From Microbacteriaceae bacterium BACL25 MAG-120322-bin65 (lineage in GTDB: Bacteria > Actinomycetota > Actinomycetes > Actinomycetales > Microbacteriaceae), in the NCBI GenBank assembly GCA_001438965.1, contig LIAY01000004.1:1-35816 (forward strand): a stretch of 35,816 nt of DNA. Direction: 5' to 3'. Under the pieces are notes generated by a model. It did no database searches. It had not been told where the DNA came from and saw only the letters and a program-made list of their open reading frames with translations. Position numbers and translations under genes: made by a program. Numbering within the stretch: the first letter of the stretch is position 1; each line of letters begins with the position of its first letter. This document shows, piece by piece, positions 12,175 to 34,976 of the stretch.

Positions 12175-13440
12175 ATGAGCGTAATTTCTAAGGCTGGGAC
12201 TGGCTTTGCCATTCTCGCTGCCTCAGCGCTAGTGCTCAGCGGCTGTGCAGCCGCTGATGAAATGGCTTCTGAAACCACTGAGGAAGCCCCCACGGCTGCC
12301 GCAGAGGCTTTGGAACTACTGATCGGTACGGCTTTGCCGCAGACCGGTAACCTTGCATTCCTCGGGCCACCCGAAGAAGCTGGTGTAGCACTCGCTGTCC
12401 AGGACATCAACGACGCTGCAGCTGGCATCACCGTTGACGTTGTGTGGGGCGACTCCGGAGATACTGACAACAAGGCATATGAAACTGAGATTCCCCGTCT
12501 GCTCAACGCAGGTGTGTCGGCAATCTTGGGTGCTGCATCGTCAGGTACCTCCCTTCAGTTCATCGACCAGATTGTTGCAGCGAACGTAATCCAGTTCTCT
12601 CCTGCCAACACTTCGGCCGCATTCACCGACTACGAGGACAACGGTCTGTACTGGCGTACAGCCCCTTCTGACGTTCTTCAGGGTGAGGTGCTCGGAAACT
12701 GGCTCGCTGAAGACGGTCACCAGAACATCGCCATGATGGTTCTGAATGACTCCTACGGCACCGGTCTTGCTAAGTTCACCACGGAGGCCTTCGAGGCTGC
12801 CGGTGGTTCTGTGCTAGCAGCCCCTACCTACAACACGGGAGACACCAACTTCACCTCTCAGATCAACGAGGTGCTCGCAGTTGACCCCGACGCCATTGTC
12901 CTCATCACTTTCGAAGAGGCCAAGACCATCATTCCTGAGCTGTTGAGCCAGTACCCCTCCGACCAGATTTACATGGTCGATGGTAACCTCGCTAACTTCA
13001 GCGCTGACTTCGAGGCCGGCACCATGACCGGTGCGAAGGGAACCCTTCCTGGTCTGGACACCAACGTAATCGGTGACTTCACTGAGCGCATGAACGAGAG
13101 CTGGGTTGCCGCAGGCAACGCTGATCTCGGAGGTGTCTTTGCCTACGGTGCTGAGGCTTACGACTCAGTCGTATTGCTCGCGCTTGCTGCTCTTGCAGCC
13201 GGTGCAACCGATGGTCCTACAGTCGCTGGCAAGCTCCAGGAAGTTTCTGGCGGCTCCGGTGGTGGCGAGAAGTGCACCAGCTTTGCTGACTGTGCTGCCA
13301 TCATCAACGCCGGTGGCGTTGCTGACTATGACGGCGTGTCCGGTCCCATCACCTTCAACGAGGTGGGCGACCCAACAGAAGCCAGCATTGGTAAGTACAT
13401 CTACCTTGAGGACAACACCTACGTGCCTTTCGCAGGCTAG
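12175..13440 (+). CDS. ABC transporter substrate-binding lipoprotein (branched-chain amino acid / LivK-type)
   Basis: Lipobox ALVLSGC; IGTALPQTGNLAFLGPPEEAGVALAVQDIN; periplasmic-binding type I fold pattern; convergent with livHMGF. Confidence 0.88.
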   Translation: MSVISKAGTGFAILAASALVLSGCAAADEMASETTEEAPTAAAEALELLIGTALPQTGNLAFLGPPEEAGVALAVQDINDAAAGITVDVVWGDSGDTDNKAYETEIPRLLNAGVSAILGAASSGTSLQFIDQIVAANVIQFSPANTSAAFTDYEDNGLYWRTAPSDVLQGEVLGNWLAEDGHQNIAMMVLNDSYGTGLAKFTTEAFEAAGGSVLAAPTYNTGDTNFTSQINEVLAVDPDAIVLITFEEAKTIIPELLSQYPSDQIYMVDGNLANFSADFEAGTMTGAKGTLPGLDTNVIGDFTERMNESWVAAGNADLGGVFAYGAEAYDSVVLLALAALAAGATDGPTVAGKLQEVSGGSGGGEKCTSFADCAAIINAGGVADYDGVSGPITFNEVGDPTEASIGKYIYLEDNTYVPFAG

Positions 13441-13579: not shown

Positions 13580-14311
13580 TTAGGTTCCGAGCGTTCCGAG
13601 GTAGAGGTTGATGACCTTTGGGTCGGTCAGCAGTTCACGACCGGTCCCCGTGTATGCGTCAGTGCCCTGGTCGAGCACGTACGCGCGGTCACAGATCTGT
13701 AGGCATCGTCTGGCGTTTTGTTCCACCATGATGGTGGTCACGCCCGCCTTGTTGATCTCTGAGACGCGGATAAACGCTTCGTCCTGTCGGACTGGCGAGA
13801 GGCCAGCAGACGGTTCATCGAGTAGCAGTACTTTGGGGTCCATCATTAGTGCACGCCCCATAGCGACCATTTGACGCTCACCCCCGGAAAGGGAGCCCGC
13901 GCGCTGCTTCAGGCGCTTCTTGAGATCATCGAATAGGCCCACTACAAAATCCAACCGCTCTGCATAATTCTTGGGCTGTTGGAAGACCCCCATTTGTAGG
14001 TTCTCTTCAATAGTGAGGCTTGGGAAGACGTTGTTGTTCTGAGGCACCATTCCCACACCGCGCTCAACGAGCTTGTTAGCCTTAAGCCCCGTGATGTCAT
14101 CCCCATTCAAGGTGATGTGACCCTCGCGAATCTTGACCTGGCCAAAGATGGCCTTCAACAGGGTGGACTTTCCTGCACCGTTGGGACCAATGATTCCAAT
14201 GAGCTCGCCCTGGCGGGCTTCAATCGAACATCCGTTGAGGATATTGACGCCGGGAAGGTAGCCAGCGAAAAGGTTATCAACGTGGATTACGGGTGTGTTG
14301 TTATCGGCCAT
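13580..14311 (-). CDS. livF: Branched-chain amino acid-type ABC transporter ATP-binding protein LivF
   Basis: GIIGPNGAGKSTLLKAIFG, LSGGERQMVAMGRALM, LLLDEPSAGLSP. Confidence 0.92.
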   Translation of the reverse strand: MADNNTPVIHVDNLFAGYLPGVNILNGCSIEARQGELIGIIGPNGAGKSTLLKAIFGQVKIREGHITLNGDDITGLKANKLVERGVGMVPQNNNVFPSLTIEENLQMGVFQQPKNYAERLDFVVGLFDDLKKRLKQRAGSLSGGERQMVAMGRALMMDPKVLLLDEPSAGLSPVRQDEAFIRVSEINKAGVTTIMVEQNARRCLQICDRAYVLDQGTDAYTGTGRELLTDPKVINLYLGTLGT

Positions 14312-14337: not shown

Positions 14338-15228
14338 TTATTCGGAAATCTTCGGGATTCGACCGGTCACGGTCCCCAGGTCAACGTCTTGGTGGGAACC
14401 CAAATACGCGTCAATTACGGCAGGGTTCTTCATGACTTGATCAGCGGGGCCTTCCGCGACGACTCGACCTTCGGCCATCACCACAACCCAGTCGGCAATG
14501 TGACTGACCATGTGCATGTCGTGCTCAACGAAGAGCACGGTCATGCCCTCTTTTTTAAGATCAAGAATGTGGTCCAAGAGGGACTGAGTCAGCGCAGGGT
14601 TCACACCCGCCATCGGCTCATCAAGCATCACCAGTTCGGGGTCACTCATTAGTGCACGAGCCATTTCGAGTAGTTTGCGCTGACCGCCAGAAAGGCTCGC
14701 CGCAAAATCGTCTTTTTTGGTGTCGAGCTTGAACTTACTCAGCAAAAGCATTGCCTTCTCGGCAATCTCGTCGTCCTGTTTCTTCCACATGAAGGGAAAG
14801 AGTGAATTGAGAAAATTCTCACCTTTTTGGTCCTTGGCGCCGAGTTTCATGTTGTCGAGCACGGTGAGCAGACCGAGAGCTTTGGTGAGTTGGAAGGTTC
14901 TTACCTGCCCCATCTGGGCGAGCTTGAATGCTGGCACGCCGGCGATGTTTTTGCCGCCAAAGGTCCATTCCCCGGTGTCGGGCTTATCAAATCCGGTCAG
15001 CAAGTTAAACAGGGTCGTCTTACCGGCACCGTTGGGGCCAATCAGCGCGGTAATGGCACCACGAGGAATCTCGAGGTGGTCCACATCGACGGCGGTGAGA
15101 CCACCGAATTGCCGACGAACGTGATCCATCGAGATGATGGGGTCCACTTTCTTTACTCCCGGCTCGATTGTGCCGATGTGAAGACCCTGAGTCTTTGTTA
15201 CTTTGCCCGAACTGTTGTTACCTGACAA
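14338..15228 (-). CDS. livG: Branched-chain amino acid-type ABC transporter ATP-binding protein LivG
   Basis: ALIGPNGAGKTTLFNLLTGF, LSGGQRKLLEMARALM, VMLDEPMAGVNP; TTG start with 11-bp overlap with livM is only probable. Confidence 0.92.
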   Translation of the reverse strand: MSGNNSSGKVTKTQGLHIGTIEPGVKKVDPIISMDHVRRQFGGLTAVDVDHLEIPRGAITALIGPNGAGKTTLFNLLTGFDKPDTGEWTFGGKNIAGVPAFKLAQMGQVRTFQLTKALGLLTVLDNMKLGAKDQKGENFLNSLFPFMWKKQDDEIAEKAMLLLSKFKLDTKKDDFAASLSGGQRKLLEMARALMSDPELVMLDEPMAGVNPALTQSLLDHILDLKKEGMTVLFVEHDMHMVSHIADWVVVMAEGRVVAEGPADQVMKNPAVIDAYLGSHQDVDLGTVTGRIPKISE

Positions 15229-16198
15229 AGGTCATCTCCCTCTTATCGCCAAGGATTCCCTGGGGTCGGAATATCACCAGAAGAACGAGGCCGACACCGA
15301 CCAACACAAAGCGGAGTGTGGCTGCCTGTTGGGCCGTCACCATCGGCAGAATTCCCGAGGACACCAGCGACGGGAGCAGGTTAGATAGGAATGCCTGGAG
15401 AACCCAAAATACGACCGCACCAAGCAGCGGCCCAAAAACCGTTGCCGCGCCGCCGAGTAGGAGAGCAGTCCACACGAAGAAGGTCAACGAGGTGACGTAG
15501 ACGTTCGGATTGACCGCACTGGGAAGCGCATAAACAATTCCCCCGAGGGCTGCAATCACTCCACCGATAATGAGAGCCTGCATCTTGTAAGAAAAAACGT
15601 CTTTCCCAAGAGCCCGGACAGCGTCCTCGTCTTCGCGAATTCCCTTAATAACGCGGCCCCACGGGCTGTGCATGAGACGCCAGACGAAGAGCGCCGCGAG
15701 AGCAACCAGGACTACCCCAATAATCAGAACCCAGAATTCCACCTCGTTGTAAACCCAGGGCCCAAAGCCATACGTGCCCTCTGGGAACGGGTTAGAGGCC
15801 CTGAAGCTTGCGTGATAGCCAAAAAGGCCATCGGCGGACCCAGTGACCTCTTCAAAGGCCGTAGTGAGGAAAAGCAAACGAAGAATCTCGGCTGTCGCAA
15901 TGGTCACAATCGCGAGGTAGTCCCCTCGAAGTCGCAGAGTAGGAACACCCATGACGATGGCGAAGAGCACTGATGCGCCCACTCCCATCAGGGCAGCCGC
16001 CCACCATGGCAAACCAAAGGTCAGAATTGAAATCGCGTAACCGTAGCCTCCAACCGCCATGAAGCCGGCGATTCCCATGTTGAGCAAGCCCGCAAACCCG
16101 AAGTGGACCGCAAGCCCCAACGCGGCGAGAGCAAAAGCCATCGTCGCTGGGCTCAACAGCGATTGGGCTGTGTTTGAGAGAATTGATCCCCAGTCCAT
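15218..16198 (-). CDS. livM: Branched-chain amino acid-type ABC transporter permease LivM
   Basis: Multi-TM; GVPTLRLRGDYLAIVTIATAEILR and RSPWGRVIKGIREDEDAVRALGKDVF-like LivM motifs. Confidence 0.92.
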   Translation of the reverse strand: MDWGSILSNTAQSLLSPATMAFALAALGLAVHFGFAGLLNMGIAGFMAVGGYGYAISILTFGLPWWAAALMGVGASVLFAIVMGVPTLRLRGDYLAIVTIATAEILRLLFLTTAFEEVTGSADGLFGYHASFRASNPFPEGTYGFGPWVYNEVEFWVLIIGVVLVALAALFVWRLMHSPWGRVIKGIREDEDAVRALGKDVFSYKMQALIIGGVIAALGGIVYALPSAVNPNVYVTSLTFFVWTALLLGGAATVFGPLLGAVVFWVLQAFLSNLLPSLVSSGILPMVTAQQAATLRFVLVGVGLVLLVIFRPQGILGDKREMTFVR

Positions 16199-16207
16199 CT
16201 GTGTCCC

Positions 16208-17467
16208 CTAACCTATGCGTTCTTTTCGGCCCAACAGGCCTTGAGGCCTGACGAGCAGAATTGCGATGAGTAGTACGAGAGCCCCGACGTACTTCAAGTC
16301 AGAGGGAATGACTAGGGCAGAGGTTTCGACCATGACCCCGACGATCAATGCCCCTATCAGAGCGCCGAAAGCGGTTCCCAAACCACCCAGTACCACCGCA
16401 GCGAACATCAGCAAAAGAATTTTCTCACCCATATCCCATTTGATGCCGGGTCGGAAGTAAGCCCACAAGATTCCAGATAGCCCCGCAAGCATGGAGGCAA
16501 GAATCCACACAATCCTGACAACTCGGTCGACATCAATACCCGAAGCGGCGGCGAGAGAAGCGTTATCCGAAATAGCTCGGGTGGCTTTTCCAGTGTTGGA
16601 GTAAAGAAGCCACAGCGCAAAGAGAACAATGACCACCAGGCTGATTGCCATGCTGGCAAGGTCAACCGTGCTCAAGGCGACTGCCCCAAAGAGTGGGATT
16701 TTGTTCGCACCAGAACCGGGCAACTGCATGGTTCCACCGCCAACGAAGAACTGGAACACGTAGCGCACAGCGAGAGAGAGTCCAATACTGACAATCATCA
16801 GTTGAACGAGCCCCAACCCTCTCGCCCGAAGCGGTTTCCATAGTCCTGCATCTTGAACCCACCCGAGCCCGGCACTGGCGGCCACCGCTAAGGGGAAAGC
16901 AATCCACAAAGGCAGAGACAACACGACGCCAAATGCGTAGGCCATCAGGGCGCCAAATGTGACGAGTTCTGCGTGCGCAAAGTTAGACAATCCTGTTGTG
17001 CCATAAACCAGAGATAAACCGATAGAAGCAAGTCCCAGCATCAAACCAAAATTGACGCCATAAATGAGCCGCTGAACGACTTGGTCGAACAAGCTGATGA
17101 TCTGGCGTTCGCCTTCGCCGATAAAGAAGTTCTGGACCACACTGCCGCTGGGCCCAATCTCTGCCGACTGAGTAGCGCCACCCTCGAGGACAGCGATTCC
17201 TTCAGGCAAAGTCGACTCATCTAAAGTTACGTCGTAGGTGCCGCGCTCGGGGACTCCAATTACCCACTTACCGTCTGCGTCGGTGACCACTTCCGCGCTG
17301 TAACCATTGCCGGAAACTTCGATTCGAACTGAGGCGATGGGTTCCCCCTCGTTCTTTACGTTGCCAGCGATTCGGAAGTCGTATTCCTCACCAACCGTGT
17401 CCGCAAGGGCTGGGGAGGCAATGGAAGCTCCCATGAAGCCCAGGACGACGACCAGGAAAATCTTCAT
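16208..17467 (-). CDS. livH: LivH-type permease with N-terminal signal peptide and carboxypeptidase-regulatory-like (prealbumin-like) domain
   Basis: MKIFLVVVLGFMGASIASPALA signal; AGNVKNEGEPIASVRIEVSGNGYSAEVVTDADGKWVIGVPERGTYDVTL beta-sandwich repeat; then LivH core GLASIGLSLVYGTTGLSNFAHAELVTFGALMAY. ORF extends upstream to 17596; start 17467 inferred from the signal peptide. Confidence 0.88.
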   Translation of the reverse strand: MKIFLVVVLGFMGASIASPALADTVGEEYDFRIAGNVKNEGEPIASVRIEVSGNGYSAEVVTDADGKWVIGVPERGTYDVTLDESTLPEGIAVLEGGATQSAEIGPSGSVVQNFFIGEGERQIISLFDQVVQRLIYGVNFGLMLGLASIGLSLVYGTTGLSNFAHAELVTFGALMAYAFGVVLSLPLWIAFPLAVAASAGLGWVQDAGLWKPLRARGLGLVQLMIVSIGLSLAVRYVFQFFVGGGTMQLPGSGANKIPLFGAVALSTVDLASMAISLVVIVLFALWLLYSNTGKATRAISDNASLAAASGIDVDRVVRIVWILASMLAGLSGILWAYFRPGIKWDMGEKILLLMFAAVVLGGLGTAFGALIGALIVGVMVETSALVIPSDLKYVGALVLLIAILLVRPQGLLGRKERIG

Positions 17468-17694
17468 CACAGCGCCGAGCTTGCGCTCTGAGCGGTGGGT
17501 GACGGCTTGACTCACAATGCCTCCATAGGGTCGTGCACGAAATCGGTTCACGCCACTTCTCCTCGCGCCGCCATCGCCGCGTCCTGTGTTGGTCATTAGT
17601 TCTGTTTACGCCGCAGCGTGCACAGCGTTCCTATTATGCCGATGTATCGCACTGAGGTCGAACCGGTTACGATGTATTGAAACCAAATCGTTAG

Positions 17695-19236
<1,542 letters not shown>

Positions 19237-19259: not shown

Positions 19260-20369
19260 GTGCATGAAGTTGAGATTGGGCTGACTAAACGCGCTAATCG
19301 CGCGTACTCCTTTGATGATGTTGCGGTGGTGCCAAGCCGTCGAACTAGGGATCCCGAGGATGTCTCGGTGGACTGGAGCATTGATGCTTTTAGTTTCTCC
19401 ATGCCAGTAATAGCGGCGCCGATGGATTCTGTGATGTCACCTGCTACCGCAATCGCGATGGGAAAAATTGGCGGTTTAGGGGTTTTGAACCTCGAGGGTT
19501 TGTGGACCAGATATCAGGACCCCGAGCCCCTCTATGAAGAAATCGCGTCCCTGGCGGACGAGGAAGCAACGCGCGTCTTGCAGAGAATTTATGCCGAACC
19601 AATCAAGGTGGAATTGATTTCCCAGCGCTTGCAAGAAATTCGTGATGCGGGAGTGCCCGTTGCGGGCGCTCTTTCACCACAGCGCACCCGAGAGTTTTCC
19701 GAGACAGTGGTCAAAGCAGGCGTCGATCTTTTTGTGATTCGTGGAACGACAGTAAGCGCAGAGCATGTCAGCCAGAACCGCGAGCCGCTCAACCTTAAAG
19801 AGTTCATTTATGAACTTGATGTTCCAGTGATCGTGGGTGGAGCTGCGACCTATACCGCCGCACTTCACCTGATGCGCACCGGTGCTGCCGGTGTATTGGT
19901 CGGCTTTGGTGGCGGAGCGGCCTCCAGTACTCGGGCTGCTCTGGGAATCCAAGCTCCGATGGCTACTGCTATTTCTGATGTTGCGAGCGCCAGGCGAGAT
20001 TATTTGGATGAGTCTGGCGGACGTTATGTGCACGTCATCGCCGATGGCGGTTTGGGCCACAGCGGTGACATGGTGGCAGCTATTGCCACCGGTGCAGATG
20101 CGGTGATGCTGGGGTCCACGCTTGCTCGCAGTTCCGAGGCGCCAGGCCGGGGATGGCATTGGGGCCCAGAAGCTCACCACCCCACGCTGCCCCGCGGTTA
20201 TCGGGTCTGGGTGGGCCACGATGGGACACTCGAACACGTTCTTTTGGGACCTGCTCACAGCGCTGATGCCCGCACTAACCTGGTGGGAGCGTTGCGTCAC
20301 TCGATGGCGACCTGTGGATATTCCGATCTCAAAGAATTCCAGCGCGTCGACGTGGTCGTTCACAGCTAA
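19260..20369 (+). CDS. guaB3: GuaB3-type IMP dehydrogenase family protein
   Basis: Second IMPDH/GMPR-fold ORF without CBS domains; RANRAYSFDDVAVVPSRRTRDPEDV, ARRDYLDESGGRYVHVIADGGLGHSGD; directly after guaB. Confidence 0.9.
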   Translation: MHEVEIGLTKRANRAYSFDDVAVVPSRRTRDPEDVSVDWSIDAFSFSMPVIAAPMDSVMSPATAIAMGKIGGLGVLNLEGLWTRYQDPEPLYEEIASLADEEATRVLQRIYAEPIKVELISQRLQEIRDAGVPVAGALSPQRTREFSETVVKAGVDLFVIRGTTVSAEHVSQNREPLNLKEFIYELDVPVIVGGAATYTAALHLMRTGAAGVLVGFGGGAASSTRAALGIQAPMATAISDVASARRDYLDESGGRYVHVIADGGLGHSGDMVAAIATGADAVMLGSTLARSSEAPGRGWHWGPEAHHPTLPRGYRVWVGHDGTLEHVLLGPAHSADARTNLVGALRHSMATCGYSDLKEFQRVDVVVHS

Positions 20370-30409: not shown

Positions 30410-31927
30410 ATGGTGCGCTCTAAAACTTCAGCCCGTGTTGCCGTGCTGGAAATGGCCCACGTGGCTAAAGCCTTCGGTGGGGTCCAGGCACTTGTCGATG
30501 CTGGTTTGGTTCTTTATCCCGGTGAGGTCCACGCACTACTGGGTGAAAACGGCGCAGGAAAATCCACATTGCTGAAGACCTTAGCGGGAGTTCACCGGTC
30601 AGATGCGGGTGAAATAACGCTTCACGGCAGAGCATTCGAGCAGGGAAGCACTCGAGATTCTATCGAGCAAGGTATCGCCGTGATTTATCAGGAGCCGAGC
30701 CTCTTCCCCGACCTCTCCTTGGCCGAGAACGTCTTTGTTGGTAGGCAGCTTGTCAGTGGTGGTTTAGTCGACTGGGCTGCGATGGAAAAAGCTTCTCGGG
30801 CACTCTTTGAGCGGTTGGGTGTGAATCTCGACCCGCACGCAAAGGCGCGGGGAATTTCTATCGCTGATCAGCAGATAGTCGAAATTGCAAAAGCTCTATC
30901 CACGGACGCTCGCATCATTGTTATGGATGAGCCCACTGCGGCGCTTTCGTCCCAAGAGGTCGAGCGACTTTTTAGCGTTGTCAGAAACCTTCGCGACCAG
31001 GGCGGTGCGGTTGTTTTTGTCAGCCACCGTCTTGATGAGGTTTTTGCCCTGTGCGATCGCATGACGGTGATGCGCGATGGTTCCACAGTTGGTACCTCGC
31101 TCATCCGCGACACTACGGATTCCGAGGTTGTGCGCATGATGGTGGGGCGCGAAGTCTCCGAGTTATTTCCTAAGCTTGAGCCCAGAATTGGGGACGTTGT
31201 CCTCAAGGTGGAAAATCTCGGACTCGCTGGGCAGTTCTCGAATATTTCTTTTGAGGTGCGATCCGGAGAAATATTCGCCCTGGCAGGCTTGGTTGGGTCC
31301 GGCCGGTCGGAGGTCATTCGCGCCATCTTTGGCATTGACCGGTATGACACCGGTTCGGTCACTATTCATGGTTCGCGGTTGGCGCCTGGAAGGCCAGCTG
31401 TATCGATGGAGCAGGGCATCGCTCTAGTCCCCGAGGACCGGCGCCAGCAGGGGTTGTTCATGGCCTCGTCGATTGCGCGAAATGTGGCGGTGACTATGTT
31501 GAAAAAATTAACTTCGTGGTTATTACTTCGACGCACGAGGGAAGAGTCGACGGCGGCGACATGGGCCGAGACGCTCCAGGTTAAATTTGCGAATTTGGCG
31601 GACCCCGTGGATAAGCTTTCAGGGGGAAACCAGCAAAAAGTGGTGTTGGCAAAGTGGCTGGCGACCGAACCCCGGGTCCTCATTGTCGATGAGCCGACGC
31701 GAGGTATTGATGTTGGCACAAAGGCTGAGGTACACAAGCTCCTGTCCCAAAAGGCTCAGCAGGGGATGGCCGTGATCATGGTGTCTTCCGAGCTACCCGA
31801 AGTCATGGGCATGGCGGACCGAGTTTTTGTGATGCGCGAGGGCCAGCACAGGGGAACCCTGGAGCGGTCTGAGGCTACCCCGGAAAAGATCATTACTCTT
31901 GCAACGGGTGGAGCGGTCGCATCGTGA
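30410..31927 (+). CDS. rhaT: Sugar (rhamnose) ABC transporter ATP-binding protein, tandem ATPase
   Basis: Two ABC modules: LLGENGAGKSTLLKTLAG and LSGGNQQKVVLAKWLATEPRVLIVDEPTRGIDVG; RbsA/RhaT type. Confidence 0.9.
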   Translation: MVRSKTSARVAVLEMAHVAKAFGGVQALVDAGLVLYPGEVHALLGENGAGKSTLLKTLAGVHRSDAGEITLHGRAFEQGSTRDSIEQGIAVIYQEPSLFPDLSLAENVFVGRQLVSGGLVDWAAMEKASRALFERLGVNLDPHAKARGISIADQQIVEIAKALSTDARIIVMDEPTAALSSQEVERLFSVVRNLRDQGGAVVFVSHRLDEVFALCDRMTVMRDGSTVGTSLIRDTTDSEVVRMMVGREVSELFPKLEPRIGDVVLKVENLGLAGQFSNISFEVRSGEIFALAGLVGSGRSEVIRAIFGIDRYDTGSVTIHGSRLAPGRPAVSMEQGIALVPEDRRQQGLFMASSIARNVAVTMLKKLTSWLLLRRTREESTAATWAETLQVKFANLADPVDKLSGGNQQKVVLAKWLATEPRVLIVDEPTRGIDVGTKAEVHKLLSQKAQQGMAVIMVSSELPEVMGMADRVFVMREGQHRGTLERSEATPEKIITLATGGAVAS

Positions 31928-32904
31928 ACGCTCTCAAAAATCTCATTAAGGCCAGAGAAGTCCCGGTATTTCTTGCCCTCGTCTTAGTCATCGCGGTGGC
32001 GGGTATCGCTAACCCTTCCTTCCTTAGCGCCAGTGGGGCGCGAGACATTCTTTTGGGCGTTGCCATTGTCGCGATTCTGGCGGTGGCGCAAACCTTTGTT
32101 ATTGTCATGCGCCATATTGATCTCTCGGTGGGCTCTCTCATTGGGTTCACGTCGTTCTTGATTGGCGACCTTTATTCGCAGGGCTATGGATTATGGGTCG
32201 GTCTGGCTGCCGCGCTCCTGGTTGGAGCGCTCGTCGGTGCAATCAACGGGTTTCTCGTTGCCTATCTTCGCCTCCCTAGTCTCGTGGTCACCTTGGGTGC
32301 GCTGTACGTGGTGCGCGGCATTTTCAACGATTACGCTTTTGGCCGCACGATTACCGCTGCGATGGTGCCCCCGGAAGTGGCGTGGATTGGCTTGAATCGC
32401 CTCGTCGGCATACCGGTGCTGTTTCTTATCGGATTGGCGTTGGTGATTGTCAGCGGCGTCATTATGCGCAGGGTTCGAGCGGCGAGAGACCTCTACGCAA
32501 TTGGGTCTAATCCGGTTGCTGCCGAGTTGGCCGGTATTCCTGTTGCGAGGCGGGTATTTACGGCTTTTGTGATCAACGGTTCTATTACCGGTTTGGCCGG
32601 AGCGGTTATGTTGGGCCGGTTTAACGCGGCCAATGCAAACTCGGGCTTGGCGCTGGAGCTCATAGTCATAGCTGCGTGCGTCGTGGGCGGGGTCACCATC
32701 GCTGGTGGCTCGGGCTCCGTATGGGGGGCGTTCTTGGGTGCCATCCTGTTGCAGGCCATCACTCGCACGATCGGTGCTCTTGGTATCCCCCAATTCTGGC
32801 AGCAGGCTTTCAATGGCGCGTTAATTATTTTGGCCATCGCCTTAGATAAATACCTCAGCACGAGGGTTATGGCGACAACGATTATGGGGTCCAAAGATGA
32901 GTAA
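31924..32904 (+). CDS. rhaP: Rhamnose ABC transporter permease
   Basis: CUT2 permease: FVIVMRHIDLSVGSLIGF, AIGSNPVAAELAGIPV, GGVTIAGGSGSVWGAFLGA. Confidence 0.88.
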   Translation: MNALKNLIKAREVPVFLALVLVIAVAGIANPSFLSASGARDILLGVAIVAILAVAQTFVIVMRHIDLSVGSLIGFTSFLIGDLYSQGYGLWVGLAAALLVGALVGAINGFLVAYLRLPSLVVTLGALYVVRGIFNDYAFGRTITAAMVPPEVAWIGLNRLVGIPVLFLIGLALVIVSGVIMRRVRAARDLYAIGSNPVAAELAGIPVARRVFTAFVINGSITGLAGAVMLGRFNAANANSGLALELIVIAACVVGGVTIAGGSGSVWGAFLGAILLQAITRTIGALGIPQFWQQAFNGALIILAIALDKYLSTRVMATTIMGSKDE

Positions 32905-33898
32905 ATTCAGCTTCAGCTGGGATAAAGGTGTGGGAATTTTTCTGATTCTTGCCGTCCTGCTGGGATCCTTGCTTTCGGACAACTTCGCTAACGTGAGCAA
33001 CTTGAGCTTCGTTTTGAGGGATGTAACGGAATTCGCAATTATTGCTCTGGCGATGACTTTTCTCATAATTTCCGGTGAGATTGATTTGTCCGTTGCTTCG
33101 ACTTTGAACCTCTCCAGCGCGAGCCTGGGTTTCCTTTATCGAGCCGGGGTTCCCTTTGAGTTGGCCATTATCGGCGGTTTGCTGGTGGGCCTTGCCTGCG
33201 GTTTGTTTAACGGGTACCTGGTCACTAAATTGGGCTTGCCGTCTTTGGCGGTCACTATTGCCACGTTGGCTTTGTATCGCGGACTCAGTTACGCCCTCTT
33301 GGGCAATAAGCCAGTAAATGAACTCCCTGAGTTTTGGATTTCTCTGGGTTATGGCCGCATACCTGGCACTTTTATCCCCTGGTCCACCATTCTCTTGGTG
33401 CTGCTCGTCGCGTTGGCTTGGTTTATTTTGCACAACACGCGTTATGGCCGTTGGACGTTCGCCATCGGAGTCAACGCAGAAGCAGCAAAGTTCAGCGGAA
33501 TTCCTGTTCAACGCACAAAGCTTGCCTTATTCGCGATGACAGGATTGATGTCTGGTGTCGCCGGAGTCGTCTACACTCTCCGCTTCGCGAGCGCGTCGCC
33601 CGATGGCGCTGCCGGTTACGAGCTCAGCGTTATCGCTGCCGTCTTGTTTGGAGGGGTTTCCATCGCCGGTGGCGTGGGGACCCTCTGGGGCGTTATTGCG
33701 GCCGTGCTGTCGTTAGGGGTTATCCGTTCAGCTTTGCAACTTGCAGGATTTACAGCCAACTCCCTCCTTATTGTGAGTGGAGGGCTGCTATTGATTTCAG
33801 TTATCGCACCAAAGATAACTGAAGGCTTGCGAAACCGCCCAAGAGCGGTCAGCAAGAACAACACCAAGAAAACCATTCGAGAGGTGGAAAATGAATAA
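32897..33898 (+). CDS. rhaQ: Rhamnose ABC transporter permease
   Basis: CUT2 permease: MTFLIISGEIDLSVASTLNLSS, IGVNAEAAKFSGIPV, GGVSIAGGVGTLWG; 8-bp overlap with rhaP. Confidence 0.88.
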   Translation: MSKFSFSWDKGVGIFLILAVLLGSLLSDNFANVSNLSFVLRDVTEFAIIALAMTFLIISGEIDLSVASTLNLSSASLGFLYRAGVPFELAIIGGLLVGLACGLFNGYLVTKLGLPSLAVTIATLALYRGLSYALLGNKPVNELPEFWISLGYGRIPGTFIPWSTILLVLLVALAWFILHNTRYGRWTFAIGVNAEAAKFSGIPVQRTKLALFAMTGLMSGVAGVVYTLRFASASPDGAAGYELSVIAAVLFGGVSIAGGVGTLWGVIAAVLSLGVIRSALQLAGFTANSLLIVSGGLLLISVIAPKITEGLRNRPRAVSKNNTKKTIREVENE

Positions 33899-34976
33899 CC
33901 GACTCATTAACTCGGCCATGAGGACCTTTGCCCTCAGCGCCGTAGTAGCACTCGGCATTGCCGGGTGCGCCAGCACCACAGAAACAGAGACAACCGAAGA
34001 CACGACTGGCTCGTCAGAGACCACGACCGACGCCGGAGAGTCTTACCGCATCGCCATCATGCCGAAGGCCATCAACATTGGTTACTTCTCAGCATGGGAC
34101 GAGGGCGCTCAGGCAGCTTGTGTCGAACTCGGCGCAACCTGTGACTACATCGGACCTAACGAGGCCACAGGCCCCGCTCAGGTTCAGTTCATCAACCAGG
34201 CTATTCAGGAAGGCTATGACGCCATCGTGATTTCGGCTGCCGACCAGAACGCTATCGTTCCGGCTCTAGAAGAGGCAATTGCTGCCGGGATCACCATTGT
34301 GACCTCGGACGCTGATGTCGCGGCAGAGTCAGCATCGGCACGTCTGGTGACGATCCTTCCTTCCGCAGCAGACCGTATCGGTACCGCTGAGGTTGACTGG
34401 ATAGCTGAGGAAGTTGGCGAAGAAGGATCCGTAGCGATTCTTTCTGCATCCGCTACCGCTGCTAACCAGAACGTATGGATCGAAGCAATGGGACCGTACC
34501 TCGAAGCCACTTACCCCAACATGTCGTGGGTAGGCGGAAGCCTCGAGTCGGCCGTGTTCTATGGTGACGACGATGCGACCAAGTCCGTTGAGCAGTTCAA
34601 CGCGATCTTGTCTCAGTACCCTGACGTAGCTGGCATCATTGCCCCCACCACTGTGGGTGTTTTGGCCGCTGCTCAAGAGAAGAAGGCCAAGGGCGCAACG
34701 GTTGCCGTCACGGGACTCGGTCTGCCTTCGGAAATGGCTCCATACATTGAGGATGGAACTATTGCCAAGGTTGGTCTCTGGAACCCCATTGACCTGGGAT
34801 ATGTAGCTGTGTATGCAGCTGTCTTAGGCATGCAGGGCGAATTCGATGGTTCTGTCGGATCGACCTTCACCGCTGGTGGGACCTCCTACGTAGTGATCGA
34901 GGGTGGCATTGCTTACCTCGGTGACCCGTTCACCTTCACCATCGACAACATTGCTACCTTCAAGGAGATCTACTAG
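33891..34976 (+). CDS. rhaS: Rhamnose ABC transporter substrate-binding lipoprotein
   Basis: Lipobox GIAGC, Thr/Glu-rich linker, YRIAIMPKAINIGYFSAWDEGAQAACVELGATCDYIGP; RhaS-type PBP. Confidence 0.9.
   Translation: MNNRLINSAMRTFALSAVVALGIAGCASTTETETTEDTTGSSETTTDAGESYRIAIMPKAINIGYFSAWDEGAQAACVELGATCDYIGPNEATGPAQVQFINQAIQEGYDAIVISAADQNAIVPALEEAIAAGITIVTSDADVAAESASARLVTILPSAADRIGTAEVDWIAEEVGEEGSVAILSASATAANQNVWIEAMGPYLEATYPNMSWVGGSLESAVFYGDDDATKSVEQFNAILSQYPDVAGIIAPTTVGVLAAAQEKKAKGATVAVTGLGLPSEMAPYIEDGTIAKVGLWNPIDLGYVAVYAAVLGMQGEFDGSVGSTFTAGGTSYVVIEGGIAYLGDPFTFTIDNIATFKEIY

Follow-up and report, generated by a model that had tools for sequence, protein, structure and literature searches.

A conserved, predicted prealbumin-like domain fused to a LivH-type permease in Microbacteriaceae bacterium BACL25 MAG-120322-bin65 and its actinobacterial relatives

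The E. coli-type LivH (PF02653; NCBIfam equivalog NF008011) has the permease core and the HMGF-K partners in common with the LivH described here, but its model contains neither a signal peptide nor an outer domain, a contrast that the preliminary description of this DNA had drawn and that holds against NF008011. UrtB (TIGR03409), a member of the same permease family, resembles our LivH in having a signal peptide and an extra domain before transmembrane helix 1, but the UrtB extension consists of HEAT repeats, whereas that of our LivH is a predicted beta-sandwich. For example, in a UrtB encoded on an Enterobacter plasmid (L141:1219-2793), the same permease core is preceded by a signal peptide and HEAT repeats. 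Our LivH scores below the cut-off of both models, with 94 bits against NF008011 (cut-off 379) and 119.3 bits against TIGR03409 (cut-off 250.3), so that neither model assigns it a substrate. Since UrtB has one, outer N-terminal domains are not without precedent in this permease family, and it is the sandwich version that differs. In the maltose importer, the outer domain MalF-P2 of the permease contacts the binding protein (PMC3150292); it lies within the permease chain (residues 91-271), the permease is of another type, and any likeness to the LivH domain would be functional only. The CarboxypepD_reg and CnaB prealbumin-like domains (PF13620, PF17802) resemble the LivH domain in predicted fold and in sequence profile, the latter with a score just below the cut-off of PF13620; the LivH domain is unlike CnaB in having no conserved lysine and in being fused to a transporter core.

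The window, i.e., the whole stretch of DNA analyzed, comprises 35,816 nucleotides (contig LIAY01000004.1), and contains the following features of the livH locus:

17520..17524, minus strand: Shine-Dalgarno sequence GGAGG, 4 bases before GTG 17515; same arrangement in relatives
16208..17515, minus strand: livH, encoding signal peptide, beta-sandwich and LivH permease (GTG start)
17402..17515, minus strand: signal peptide with an AxA-type cleavage site between PALA and DT (sequence and ortholog conservation)
17114..17401, minus strand: predicted acidic beta-sandwich, CarboxypepD_reg/CnaB-like, net charge about -14 (Pfam, AlphaFold2, Foldseek)
16256..17065, minus strand: BPD_transp_2 (LivH) core (Pfam)
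16544..16597, minus strand: predicted coupling helix region (cytoplasmic), the topology anchor (model secondary structure and analogy with other importers)
15218..16198, minus strand: livM, partner permease
14338..15228, minus strand: livG, ATPase
13580..14311, minus strand: livF, ATPase
12175..13440, plus strand: livK, lipoprotein substrate-binding protein with lipobox VLSGC, convergent with livF

This arrangement shows livH to encode a subunit of a complete LivHMGF-K importer, a putative amino-acid importer, in a locus that is otherwise ordinary. The order livH-M-G-F was present in 53 of 53 long loci, with livK in 50 of these, and relatives keep livH-livM-livG-livF and a convergent livK, usually beside guaB. 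In the window, two tandem GuaB-family open reading frames (17731-19236 and 19260-20369) adjoin livH, a pair kept in many Microbacteriaceae. The LivK of the window is highly acidic, its 398 residues having a net charge of -47 (family median -40). Elsewhere in the window (30410-34976) is a sugar-type ABC importer with a double ATPase, two BPD_transp_2 permeases and a Peripla_BP_4 binding protein. In addition, the same genome encodes a second LivH-type importer (L139:4385-7074), with a LivH without the outer domain, and with LivM and LivG fused into one 606-residue protein.

Translation of 16208-17467 on the minus strand yields the signal sequence and the beta-rich stretch quoted in the preliminary description, and then the LivH core; this order, which Pfam also recovers, agrees with what had been described. 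That description had placed the signal sequence and the fused domain at 17102-17467, a span that calls for correction at its start. Judging from the aligned sequences, livH most likely starts at GTG 17515, 16 codons upstream of ATG 17467, and encodes a protein of 435 aa. GTG 17515 is preceded by a Shine-Dalgarno sequence with the spacing GGAGG-N4-GTG, the sequence preceding ATG 17467 contains no recognisable Shine-Dalgarno, and in aligned examples from close relatives the matching position also has a GTG preceded by GGAGG. It is these aligned relatives that carry the argument, since the scan that found a Shine-Dalgarno-preceded start somewhere in the start zone of 109 of 110 loci was permissive, and its count is weak by itself. 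The GTG start gives the signal peptide a positively charged n-region, which the earlier span left out, and the mature domain occupies about 17114-17401. The proposal of a cleavable signal sequence is supported, with the AxA site conserved among approximately 109 orthologs (A20 in 94% and A22 in 93%). We regard the architecture of signal peptide, sandwich and LivH core as almost certain. The probability that it is an artefact, i.e., that translation begins at the LivH core and that the upstream frame is non-coding, is negligible: no support for a non-coding upstream frame was found, and in-frame purifying selection, the conserved ribosome site and GTG start, and the conserved cleavage motif all stand against it.

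The domain is approximately 96 residues long, and Pfam matches CarboxypepD_reg (PF13620) to livH residues 33-82 (E 1e-6). The N-terminal piece scores 31.5 bits against a gathering cut-off of 32.3, which two orthologs, L024 and L034, exceed (scores of 33.8 and 35.1 bits). A structure prediction with no beta-sandwich was to have counted against the domain; AlphaFold2 instead predicts the domain alone to be a beta-sandwich of 8-9 strands (pLDDT 91.7, pTM 0.82), and the sandwich is present in the model of full-length LivH (mean pLDDT 88.0), where, with a pTM of 0.74, its position on the core is not fixed. Foldseek neighbours of the domain in the PDB are CnaB-type or transthyretin-like, with TM-scores mostly 0.6-0.78 among the leading matches, and a profile search with the domain matches NOMO2, SdrD and similar chains. 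The domain is thus predicted to have a prealbumin-like beta-sandwich fold. A PDB sequence search with the whole LivH protein gave no matches, and a PDB search with the alignment gave domain-type matches only, none of them to a LivH structure.

The domain is under strong purifying selection, close to that on the permease core in near pairs. Against the two closest relatives (L039 and L041), to which dN/dS is limited because synonymous sites are saturated in more distant pairs, the values are 0.030 and 0.038 for the domain, and 0.014 and 0.035 for the core. At longer range the domain diverges faster, with a mean column entropy of 1.83 bits vs. 1.04 bits for the core. Near-invariant positions (mature numbering) are G13, T40, G44, P51, Y56, L65 and P66, and each domain among the orthologs contains either 0 or 2 cysteines.

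The BPD_transp_2 family (PF02653) matches residues 135-404 at 123.9 bits (cut-off 26.8; E 8e-36), and the best Foldseek matches of the core are PsaBC, BtuC and HmuU. The LivH model contains nine long membrane-type helices, with a short helix between the fifth and the sixth that we infer, by analogy with other importers, to be the coupling helix. Counting the nine helices back from this presumed cytoplasmic anchor gives an outer N-terminus and a cytoplasmic C-terminal RPQGLLGRKERIG tail, which contains 4 K/R. Such a topology agrees with UrtB, for which a published comparison (PMC3098086) noted the absence of the first helix seen in crystallised BtuC-type permeases, and the conserved AxA signal peptide and the 0-or-2 cysteines per domain both fit an outer location. 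The sandwich would then be extracytoplasmic after removal of the signal peptide, directly before transmembrane helix 1, and the signal peptide and the anchored topology both support the outer placement in the preliminary description.

Our survey of 297 genomes of the class identified approximately 117 close orthologs, i.e., matches above about 157 bits, 87 of which align directly across the domain. Tblastn-style matches starting beyond residue 100 appeared to represent many domain-less orthologs in the class, but reading upstream of such late-starting matches revealed the domain or its remainder in 14 of 15. Matches on Paracoccus and Pacificitalea plasmids seemed to cover the N-terminus; since the annotated genes there are ordinary permeases of 288-295 aa that start further in, this coverage lies outside the gene. 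Beyond the class, the domain is found elsewhere in the phylum, and it is present in the 80 related loci that we fetched, mostly from Microbacteriaceae, with the window nearest to Pontimonas. The suggestion that the fusion occurs in related actinobacteria under a plain permease annotation was confirmed, in that nearly every ortholog checked has the domain.

In a tree of the core only, the domain-bearing genes form one group (SH-aLRT 100%) with a single domain-less member (L126), and two changes account for gain and loss of the domain on this tree, vs. 14.2 in shuffles. Because the tree is a quick one rooted on one long-branched UrtB, the branching order inside the group is unsure. The simplest reading of these sequences is one early gain and one nested loss in some Streptomyces. 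In a sample of 150 genomes from the G057 family (Streptomyces-type), 4 have a LivH of this domain-less kind; in the Streptomyces-type loci L177, L200, L201 and L202, LivH keeps the signal peptide and has lost the domain. Domain-bearing LivH is an old actinobacterial subfamily, and is not peculiar to Microbacteriaceae bacterium BACL25 MAG-120322-bin65.

Retention of the signal peptide without the domain in these four Streptomyces loci indicates that the signal peptide has value of its own, and this is a point for the main rival to the reading that we set out below. In this rival the domain mainly serves biogenesis: the signal peptide would drive export of the N-terminal end of LivH, and the sandwich would aid folding or stability, taking no direct part in transport. 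That UrtB has a domain of unrelated type, HEAT, in the equivalent position also fits this explanation. It is nevertheless unlikely, since the domain has near-invariant residues and, in close pairs, is constrained by purifying selection almost to the degree of the core, and since other LivH proteins, e.g., the domain-less paralog encoded in this genome, have no signal peptide and still reach the membrane.

The preliminary description proposed that the domain could dock the binding protein where this is a membrane lipoprotein, and a check for co-occurrence of the two showed lipoprotein LivK in 64 of 66 scored domain-bearing loci, the exceptions being L050 (incomplete read) and L086 (read in the wrong frame). 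LivK without a lipobox was found only beside domain-less LivH, in three Streptomyces-type loci (L177, L200 and L201), where an AxA-type site is present instead. Both observations are what a docking module specific for lipid-anchored LivK would predict. However, a lipoprotein binding protein is also found beside domain-less LivH: in six domain-less outgroup loci, at the same-genome paralog (L139 4385-5257), and in L202, which has lost the domain and kept the lipobox. Strict co-loss of domain and lipobox, suggested by the first Streptomyces locus, is ruled out by L202, and such co-loss amounts to one event at most. The domain and the lipid anchor are therefore not tied, the special link to lipoprotein LivK was not borne out, and, with no LivK-specific rate signal either, a module of this kind is improbable.

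Partial distance correlations, with the core and the other genes controlled for, were calculated in 60 loci and repeated in 18 non-redundant loci. Between the domain and LivM the correlation was 0.49 in the 60 loci, 0.61 in the non-redundant loci and 0.38-0.62 in half-samples, whereas between the domain and LivK there was no specific signal (0.09 and 0.04 in the 60 and the 18 loci, respectively). The evolutionary distances of the domain thus appear to track those of LivM, not those of LivK, which is weak evidence in that it is correlational and cannot show contact. Since LivK and the domain are both acidic, with net charges of -47 and about -14, respectively, a direct attraction between the two is not favored. 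Covariation with LivM also bears on another explanation, that attachment of the sandwich to the cell wall or to surface glycans holds the importer in the monoderm envelope. Many surface and carbohydrate-linked proteins have this fold, but in addition to this covariation, Pfam finds no cell-wall binding family, none of the conserved domain positions in the ortholog alignment is a lysine for a CnaB-type isopeptide, which argues against such a bond, and the domain-less importer shares the same envelope in this genome. We consider wall binding very improbable.

Because the domain tracks LivM and not LivK in these correlations, we favor, at modest confidence, a reading in which the sandwich would be an extracytoplasmic cap that packs against the outside of the LivH-LivM heterodimer. 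The domain would form part of a platform for LivK docking and substrate release, comparable in function to MalF-P2 or to the HEAT domain of UrtB, and would be helpful and not essential, given that some Streptomyces have dropped it. As a whole, this explanation of an outer cap that shapes LivK docking is tentative, and falls a little short of an even chance. The functional step, i.e., the cap and docking role of the domain, is possible, at clearly less than an even chance; against it stand the lack of a specific LivK signal in the correlations and the retention, in relatives without the domain, of an unchanged locus and a lipoprotein LivK. The broader proposal of an old, phylum-wide LivH class, in which the fused prealbumin-like domain would work in the transport cycle by contacting LivM and controlling substrate delivery by LivK, is speculative and rather doubtful. 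If true, docking or gating by a fused prealbumin-like domain would be an arrangement not described for the LivH permease family.

We found no description of a LivH-sandwich fusion in the open-access literature searched, which does not prove that none exists. The fusion is real, conserved and unremarked in that literature, and is an elaboration, of putative function, of an ordinary importer. A conserved outer domain has thus passed under a plain permease label across the Actinomycetota, and its natural deletion in Streptomyces is a ready comparison. Should the domain have a part in gating or in docking of the binding protein, it would offer a way into the mechanism of importers in monoderms.
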